35,931 bases of DNA, from positions 1-35,931 of the forward strand of contig JANQGV010000280.1 of assembly GCA_028282925.1 (NCBI GenBank), read 5' to 3'. The stretch's first letter is position 1, and every line of letters starts with the position of its first letter. Below are positions 15,677 to 17,106 of the stretch, one piece after another. A program made the translations under genes and the position numbers. Below the pieces are notes generated by a model. The model worked only from the letters and a program-made list of their open reading frames with translations. It was not told where the DNA came from and did not search any database. Source of the DNA: Thermodesulfobacteriota bacterium. Its GTDB lineage: Bacteria > Desulfobacterota > WTBG01 > CAIYCZ01 > CAIRTM01.

Positions 15677-15844
15677 CTACCGCGCCATACCCAACAGGCT
15701 TTTAATTTTTTGCCAAAGGGTGGGCTTTTTTTGCGAAAAAGATTTGCCATCTTCTCCCGGTATGTAGGCTACGGTATCACCTCGACTGATGTCACGGGCC
15801 ATCTGTAACGTATCGGGCCTTTTAGGCTGCTTTTTATCTTCCAC
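15677..15844 (-). CDS. Small 55-aa protein of unknown function
   Basis: I found this by hand; it is short and starts with GTG at 15844. The ribosome site is strong (GGGGAGGA, 4 nt before the GTG). The product is 55 aa, rich in Lys/Arg (MEDKKQPKRPDTLQMARDIS, then RGDTVAYIPGEDGKSFSQKK, then PTLWQKIKSLLGMAR). No signal peptide; the last 13 residues form an amphipathic helix with Trp that could sit on a membrane or bind a partner. A consensus-like promoter, an operator-like palindrome and a terminator fit it exactly, which is good support for a real gene. No family recognised. Confidence 0.7.
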   Translation of the reverse strand: MEDKKQPKRPDTLQMARDISRGDTVAYIPGEDGKSFSQKKPTLWQKIKSLLGMAR

Positions 15845-16086: not shown

Positions 16087-16133
16087 ATCTGCCAGATTTT
16101 GAATATTTGCACACTACATTGGGAGTATTTGCA
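16084..16133 (+). promoter_or_regulatory. Candidate activator sites upstream of the sigma-54 promoter
   Basis: A perfect inverted repeat AAAATCT-GCC-AGATTTT (16084-16100) is followed by two direct copies of TATTTGCA (16104-16111 and 16126-16133). These have a 22-bp period, two helical turns, so they lie on one face. They sit roughly 80-130 bp upstream of the -24 element, where enhancer-binding proteins of sigma-54 usually bind. The assignment is inferred from position and symmetry only. Confidence 0.4.
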
Positions 16134-16210: not shown

Positions 16211-16226
16211 TGGCACTACTATTGCA
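16211..16226 (+). promoter_or_regulatory. Sigma-54 (RpoN) promoter
   Basis: TGGCAC (16211-16216), N5, TTGCA (16222-16226). This matches the -24/-12 consensus at all key positions with exact spacing. No annotated coding gene follows for more than 600 bp, but a strong terminator does, so the target is probably a small RNA. Predicted start is near 16237. Confidence 0.72.
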
Positions 16227-16236
16227 ATATGACAAA

Positions 16237-16312
16237 TGCATATCCTGTGTTTTTCTCAGGTTATAGTAATCCCCTCCGAAAAGGAAACCGGGGTTCGCCC
16301 CGGTTTCCTTTA
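16237..16312 (+). ncRNA. Predicted sigma-54-dependent small RNA (about 75 nt)
   Basis: It runs from the predicted sigma-54 start to the terminator. The layout is a small 5' hairpin (CCTG at 16244-16247 with CAGG at 16257-16260, plus three outer pairs after a T-T mismatch), a single-stranded middle with CCCCTCCG (16271-16278), and a terminator stem with TTCG loop. The middle is complementary to Shine-Dalgarno sequences (GGAGG), as in several trans-acting small RNAs. Sigma-54-driven small RNAs are known (Qrr in Vibrio), but I recognise no homology to them. A predicted element, not a known family. Confidence 0.55.
16281..16310. terminator. GC-rich intrinsic terminator with TTCG loop
   Basis: Perfect 13-bp stem (AAGGAAACCGGGG, 16281-16293, with its complement at 16298-16310) closed by the very stable TTCG tetraloop. 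The T-run after it is short, so it may also work from the minus strand. It ends about 70-75 nt after the sigma-54 promoter's expected start. Confidence 0.8.
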
Positions 16313-16372
16313 CCGAAACAAAAGAGAAACAGACCGGGGACAATTGAATAGAGTAAAAAGCTGCATTATCTG

Positions 16373-16524
16373 CACAGCGATAACAGACTGTTCGCACACT
16401 TTCCTTACCCCCCTCCGTACCCTGATACAAAAAAGTGCGGGCAGGCAGCTACCCCTACAATGCTATATTCGGTACCCTGGCTGGTGACAAAAGGCAGGAC
16501 ATCCCCTATGTCCTGCCTTTTTTT
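16373..16524 (+). ncRNA. Second candidate small RNA with C-rich loop
   Basis: The 3' end is well defined by the terminator at 16489-16524. The 5' end is a guess from a weak promoter TTGAAT-17-TATCTG (16344-16372). Inside, GCACACTTT (16394-16402) pairs with AAAGTGC (16432-16438) with one bulged A. This closes a large loop that contains CCCCTCCG (16410-16417), the same 8 nt as in the first candidate. No open frame with a ribosome site is present. Confidence 0.35.
16489..16524 (+). terminator. Strong intrinsic terminator
   Basis: Stem AAAAGGCAGGACAT (16489-16502) with ATGTCCTGCCTTTT (16508-16521), a 5-nt loop, and a run of seven T (16518-16524). No coding gene lies upstream on the plus strand for several kb, which supports a non-coding transcript ending here. 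Confidence 0.85.
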
Positions 16525-16854: not shown

Positions 16855-17106
16855 ATGTCGAACAGATTCAGCGAAATGAAAGAACTTAGGGAAGAATTGC
16901 AGGAACTGCTGGAAGAATTCCCCCACTTGGCCGATCTCCAGGAACAGATTGATGAGCGCATGGCCCATGCCGGTAACCAGTACAATCGCCTGGCAATCAT
17001 CAACCAGATGATGCTTGATCAATTCAACCGGCTGGCCGATGAAATGAACGATTTTCTTGCAACGGATGTCTCAGACTCCGCTGACCGGAAGAGAACCCTT
17101 CAGTAA
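16855..17106 (+). CDS. Small coiled-coil protein (possibly DUF3135-related)
   Basis: 83 aa, cytoplasmic. Almost wholly helical: MSNRFSEMKELREELQELLE, then a LADLQEQIDERMAHAGNQYN helix, then RLAIINQMMLDQFNRLADEM. The spacing of the QID-R and QMM-x-F-L segments resembles DUF3135 proteins, but I would not insist on it. No ribosome site of strength precedes the ATG at 16855 (GTGAGAT only), although the promoter placement supports this start. A start at 16804 would lie upstream of the predicted transcription start and is rejected. Function unknown. Confidence 0.7.
   Translation: MSNRFSEMKELREELQELLEEFPHLADLQEQIDERMAHAGNQYNRLAIINQMMLDQFNRLADEMNDFLATDVSDSADRKRTLQ

Follow-up and report, generated by a model that had tools for sequence, protein, structure and literature searches.

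A probable sigma-54-dependent small RNA gene with an exposed anti-Shine-Dalgarno segment in a Thermodesulfobacteriota genome, and a conserved RNA family of similar design in its phylum

Within a 35,931-nt stretch of a Thermodesulfobacteriota genome, analysed at its full length and called here the window, positions 16211-16311 probably form a stand-alone gene for a sigma-54-dependent small RNA (sRNA) of about 75 nt. This is the best reading of a -24/-12 element followed by an exposed segment complementary to Shine-Dalgarno (SD) sites and a terminator, an architecture that demonstrably exists in other members of the phylum. The stronger result is a conserved sigma-54 RNA family, R1/R2, uncovered by our search; R1 is well supported as a real sigma-54 RNA family that carries a ribosome-site mimic in sulfate-reducing and syntrophic bacteria. 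An earlier note on this DNA had singled out the window element, and its sighting is probably real, with reasons thinner than it stated and a novelty that it overestimated.

The candidate sRNA gene in the window

The element falls within the roughly 1 kb of intergenic DNA that separates a probable 55-aa ORF on the minus strand from a DUF3135-like gene. The features of the region are as follows.

15677-15844, minus strand: probable small ORF of 55 aa, bounding the intergenic region
16104-16111 and 16126-16133, plus strand: exact direct repeat TATTTGCA, candidate activator-binding site by its presumed function
16211-16226, plus strand: -24/-12 sigma-54 promoter element TGGCAC-TACTA-TTGCA, by motif match, with a predicted start near 16237
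16237-16311, plus strand: predicted sRNA of about 75 nt, from promoter geometry and the hairpin
16237-16268, plus strand: weak 5' stem-loop of the predicted RNA, from the predicted fold
16271-16278, plus strand: CCCCTCCG, predicted to be unpaired and complementary to the SD sequence GGAGG, from the predicted fold
16280-16311, plus strand: 14-bp UUCG hairpin with UUUCCUUU in its 3' arm, candidate intrinsic terminator, bidirectional by sequence, from fold and terminator score
16410-16521, plus strand: another C-rich stretch, with CCCCTCCG at 16410-16417, and another terminator, at 16489-16521 with TTTTTTT after it, by sequence, of putative function
16855-17106, plus strand: gene for a small DUF3135-like protein, beyond both terminators (22.0 bits where the cut-off is 22.7, E 2e-4)

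As the earlier note had stated, TGGCACTACTATTGCA at 16211-16226 on the plus strand agrees with TGGCAC-N5-TTGCA at every position, and it is the sole exact match in the window. With the GC taken as -13/-12, promoter geometry places the transcription start at about 16237. The genome encodes rpoN and yields about 42 matches to the domain of sigma-54 activators. Genome-wide, exact TGGCAC-N5-TTGCW sites number 10 against 8 for a backwards control pattern, which amounts to no enrichment, so that the motif alone is little proof. Four of these ten sites, that of the window included, are intergenic, and TTGCAAT(A/T)AT is common to all four. Another site (L040, G000:C66:6998) leads into a gene that has a ribosome site and probably encodes a secreted protein; on its upstream side are an activator-domain gene and GTTGCAT-type palindromes.

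The two copies of TATTTGCA are spaced by 22 bp, about two helical turns, and stand 85-107 bp 5' of the -24 element, a distance at which activator sites are usually located. The pair is unique in the approximately 395 kb of own-genome sequence examined on both strands, and when the 250-bp region was shuffled 2000 times by mononucleotide, 36 of the shuffles had any 8-mer repeat at 20-23 bp (a chance of about 2%). The window proteins that we searched include no activator. Near the other activator genes of the genome there was no convincing sigma-54 site with a terminator and no significant match to the R2 model described below.

The 78-nt RNA from 16237 to 16314 has a predicted folding energy of -32.4 kcal/mol (z -6.0 against shuffles). 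Its TTCG-loop hairpin, reported before, was confirmed with a stem of 14 bp, in which 16280-16293 pair with 16298-16311. Likewise, the SD-complementary segment described as unpaired, CCCCUCCG (16271-16278), is free in the minimum-free-energy (MFE) and centroid structures alike. Terminators comparable to this hairpin occur 15-75 nt downstream of about 0.3-0.5% of positions per strand in this window. Since its UUUCCUUU tail falls partly within the stem and it scores 24.5 on the plus strand, we regard the hairpin as an acceptable but not a strong terminator; its U-tract is mediocre, and it drops out under a stricter rule for the tail. On the minus strand the score is higher (34.5), so the hairpin is at least equal on that strand and could be used bidirectionally or by a minus-strand transcript. 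The proposal of a sigma-54 promoter firing into a terminator-ended noncoding RNA holds as the best reading, with a mediocre, bidirectional terminator tail and a promoter motif that is not enriched genome-wide counting against it.

Downstream, 16410-16521 may belong to a second transcript or may serve to stop read-through. The segment 16360-16526 has a strong terminator with a CCCCU loop, gives the best R1 match of the window (16.5 bits, E 0.011), and is possibly a second small RNA.

Searches for relatives of the element itself were negative. We found no second copy in its own genome, no match to the Rfam model of Vibrio Qrr, and no Rfam family at gathering score, with far-below-cutoff matches only at low thresholds. 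No DNA homologue was detected in 57 relatives, a set with no genome of the same genus. Orthologue synteny gave no shared intergenic region because the window neighbours are too diverged: in relatives, the GNAT-CBS gene is 43-44% identical and the one DUF3135 orthologue 43%.

A sigma-54 RNA family in Syntrophobacteria

A pattern consisting of -24/-12, 32-62 nt, and CCCCTCC, searched in 297 phylum genomes, matched the window and five other genomes, at seven places in total against one control match. Three of the other places share CTCTTTCCTCCTC and a terminator with GCCCC in its loop. Scanning 84,980 genomes returned 24 places, most of which belong to Syntrophobacterales or to unclassified deltaproteobacteria; among the species matched are Desulfacinum hydrothermale (class Syntrophobacteria in its NCBI lineage), D. 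infernum, and Desulfoferrobacter suflitae. Matches in Blautia, Cyanobacteriota, Clostridia, and Arenibacter were treated as chance, since no family-type hairpin follows them.

Aligned from the inferred start, 22 copies have in common a terminator stem of 12 bp, 7 pairs of which show compensatory changes. The R1 covariance model, which does not include the promoter, detects the RNA in 41 of 56 Syntrophobacteria genomes at one to six copies each; the CUCUUUCCUCC segment of R1 is invariant, and its terminator covaries.

R1 copies: L105-L177, for example L105:1501-1572; L071:1130-1182 (pattern match)

In the model-fitted alignment of 69 copies, standard pairs fill 94.9% of pair cells and two-sided changes occur in 10 of the 12 pairs, values that no shuffle attained. 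Of the 70 copies scoring at least 50 bits, 65 have a -24/-12 element between -75 and +20, compared to 5 of 6036 background windows. Because the promoter pattern was used to choose the 22 seeds only, this association is largely independent. Moreover, 25 of 34 top R1 copies and 16 of 36 middle ones have three or more TGGCG repeats within the preceding 220 bp, against 1.4% of background windows. Often set in a ATTATGGCGNGATT context, these repeats are as expected for activator sites. Near the sRNA gene of Desulfoferrobacter suflitae there is also a c-di-GMP-I riboswitch (L071:1601-1691, 83.6 bits).

Activator-linked copies and paralogues

Across 395 phylum genomes, R1 also matches families outside Syntrophobacteria at 29-47 bits, many of the copies with -24/-12. 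At about 15 of these outside loci (such as L195-L204, L209, L210, and L212), the RNA lies approximately 190-290 bp 3' of two genes on the same strand, the first for a histidine kinase and the second for a sigma-54 response regulator of about 454 aa; the domains of both proteins were confirmed for L195. Of 16 activator-linked copies, 11 have a GTAC-N8-GTAC-type palindrome upstream, against a background of 0.7%. The module at these loci begins with the histidine kinase and the NtrC-type response regulator; then come the palindrome GTACAA-N4-TTGTAC, the -24/-12, and the sRNA, the last present as two tandem copies in L204. Several module loci have a convergent gene for an Era-like GTPase next after the sRNA.

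R2, the model of this activator-linked group, recognises the R1 members L105 (48.1 bits) and L178 (26.8 bits), and R1 and R2 therefore form one superfamily, for which we found no Rfam counterpart. Independent lines make the promoter-RNA unit of R1/R2 well supported, and its invariant anti-SD segment suggests that it may act on translation.

Syntrophobacteria also contain a paralogue type (for example L178-L181, L184-L186, and L215-L219) that keeps CUCUUUCCUCC and in which TTGAC...TATAAT-like promoters replace -24/-12. The paralogous RNAs at loci L178-L181, L184-L186, L188-L194, and L215-L229 share the CUUUCCUCC segment of the family and have sigma-70-like promoters, an RNA start GGAAAG, and a C-rich terminator loop.

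Two other loci have related parts. At L064 (G257:C29:6798-6879), -24/-12 leads into a hairpin. Its CUCCCCCUCCG loop could base-pair with AAGGAGG, the ribosome site of a gene about 60 nt downstream, making it a possible cis-acting sigma-54 leader. At L091 (G116:C64:225682), -24/-12 precedes CCCUCUUAGCAAUCCUCCAAAAUGGAUUGCUUUUUUUUU in what may be another sigma-54 RNA, with UCCUCC in the terminator loop.

Weighing the readings of the window element

The sRNA reading draws on the exact -24/-12 with its shared extension, the stability of the fold, the unpaired anti-SD segment, and the rarity of terminators at this distance. To these are added rpoN and the 42 activator-domain matches, the TATTTGCA repeat, a precedent in the same family, and precedent across the phylum that is backed by sequence, covariation, promoter, and synteny. 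The same-family precedent (L253 in G007) has a PAS-Sigma54_activat-HTH_8 gene ending about 140 bp before an exact -24/-12, then AAACCUCC, then a 19-bp terminator stem, in the layout of the window element. Against the reading count the missing enrichment of exact sites, the lack of a homologue in relatives, the weak bidirectional tail, the finding of no activator gene in our search of window proteins, and the lack of an R1/R2 match. A candidate sister element, L232 in G001, combines -24/-12 with a long hairpin whose loop holds CCCUCC; it may instead be a leader, since it sits upstream of an electron-transfer-flavoprotein-like gene.

The rival that survives best, though we consider it unlikely, is that the parts are chance neighbours: a fortuitous -24/-12 beside a hairpin that ends some other transcript, from the minus strand or from an unrecognised promoter. 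The near-equal counts of exact and control sites, the higher minus-strand score of the hairpin, and the lack of conservation in relatives all agree with it. However, the site is intergenic and has the promoter extension of the other intergenic sites, the spacing is fitting, a repeat lies upstream, and L253 offers a precedent in the same family.

It is improbable that the element is a sigma-54 leader or attenuator whose hairpin serves as a conditional terminator for the DUF3135-like gene at 16855. Sigma-54 promoters with long leaders exist, this gene is on the same strand, and a second terminator follows the first; but about 620 nt and two terminators separate promoter and gene, and the Rfam search, with no leader at gathering score, returned far-below-cutoff matches only.

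Still less probable is a diverged true member of R1/R2. The order of parts is the same, CCTCC-G-AAAAG followed by an ACCGG stem resembles members by eye, and the R1 model aligns to 16258-16317. Yet the scores led us to reject membership: the R1 score is 10.8 bits (36-kb search, filters off, E 0.3), the R2 score is 8.0 bits for the hairpin alone, and examined genomes of the family, order, or class of the window contain zero R1 matches. The window element shares with R1/R2 a sigma-54 promoter at the 5' end, an exposed CCUCC, and a terminator, but the CUCUUUCCUCC segment of invariant columns is absent from it, with AAUCCCCUCCG in its place. It therefore resembles the family in design, and homology appears unsupported by any sequence evidence.

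Finally, a short peptide gene read from 16229 or 16236 can be all but dismissed, since, although open frames exist, their start codons lie 5' of the inferred transcription start, they cross the terminator hairpin (the 83-aa frame at 16236 extends through it), and they have no ribosome site, in line with the earlier judgement that no coding frame has merit.

Discussion

The promoter motif, the hairpin, the unpaired segment, the intergenic position, rpoN, and the many activators are read directly from the sequence. From them we infer the transcription, activator, targets, and action of the window sRNA along the following lines. Once activated, an enhancer-binding protein that probably occupies the TATTTGCA repeat around 16104-16133 would open sigma-54 RNA polymerase at 16211-16226, and transcription would begin near 16237 and halt at the UUCG hairpin. 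The exposed CCCCUCCG would then pair with G-rich SD sites of target mRNAs and reduce their translation. The anti-SD segment suggests such pairing at ribosome-binding sites; sequestration of a protein or of ribosomes would be an alternative.

Vibrio Qrr RNAs depend on sigma-54 and an NtrC-type regulator and occur in several copies per genome. The Syntrophobacteria family is like them in all three respects and differs in that there is no sequence match and no quorum-sensing partners were seen. The kind is already known from other bacteria as well. The earlier note held that sigma-54-dependent sRNAs are rare outside Vibrio and that a Desulfobacterota example would be new; the first view is contradicted by Desulfovibrio vulgaris, GlmY, CrcZ, and Campylobacter (PMC4641369, PMC3333781, PMC7073468, PMC8657755, PMC11187230), and the second by four sigma-54-controlled ncRNAs already published in the D. 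vulgaris regulome (PMC4641369, PMC3333781). The four are Dv_sRNA2, downstream of DVU0679, and the ncRNAs of DVU0653, DVU1419, and DVU2359 (PMC3333781, PMC4641369). Each has a sigma-54 promoter leading into an ncRNA, and two lie just 3' of a response-regulator gene, as in our kinase-regulator-sRNA module. Unlike those two, the window element showed no activator gene beside it in our search of window proteins; a site downstream of a sigma-54 response-regulator gene is a property of R2-type loci and not of the window element.

Campylobacter jejuni CJnc230/FlmE is an RpoN-dependent sRNA with a single-stranded anti-SD stretch exposed between two stem-loops, but it is processed from the flgE mRNA and is without its own intergenic sigma-54 promoter (PMC11187230). 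GlmY and CrcZ are sigma-54 dependent; in GlmY (QseEF/GlrKR) and CrcZ/CrcY (CbrAB), a two-component sigma-54 activator turns on the sRNA, whereas action is by protein binding (RapZ; Hfq/Crc) and not by an anti-SD segment (PMC7073468, PMC8657755). An incomplete literature search found no published CUUUCCUCC sRNA family in these bacteria. R1/R2 thus appears undescribed and is not in Rfam, the D. vulgaris ncRNAs having been compared by description.

We advance a wider proposal tentatively, as possible rather than probable: sigma-54 activators of Desulfobacterota may drive a recurrent class of SD-mimic sRNAs, with R1/R2 multicopy and in many families and the device evolved separately in the class of the window (the window element and L253), amounting to convergent, phylum-wide global translational control. 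The R1 family is directly testable, since cultured species carry it (Desulfacinum hydrothermale, D. infernum, and Desulfoferrobacter suflitae). Sigma-54 activators are plentiful in Desulfobacterota, with 42 activator-domain matches in this genome alone. If a regulator does drive a multicopy anti-SD-mimic RNA, a single signal could reset the translation of many genes together, and sulfate reducers and syntrophs would possess a Qrr-like circuit.
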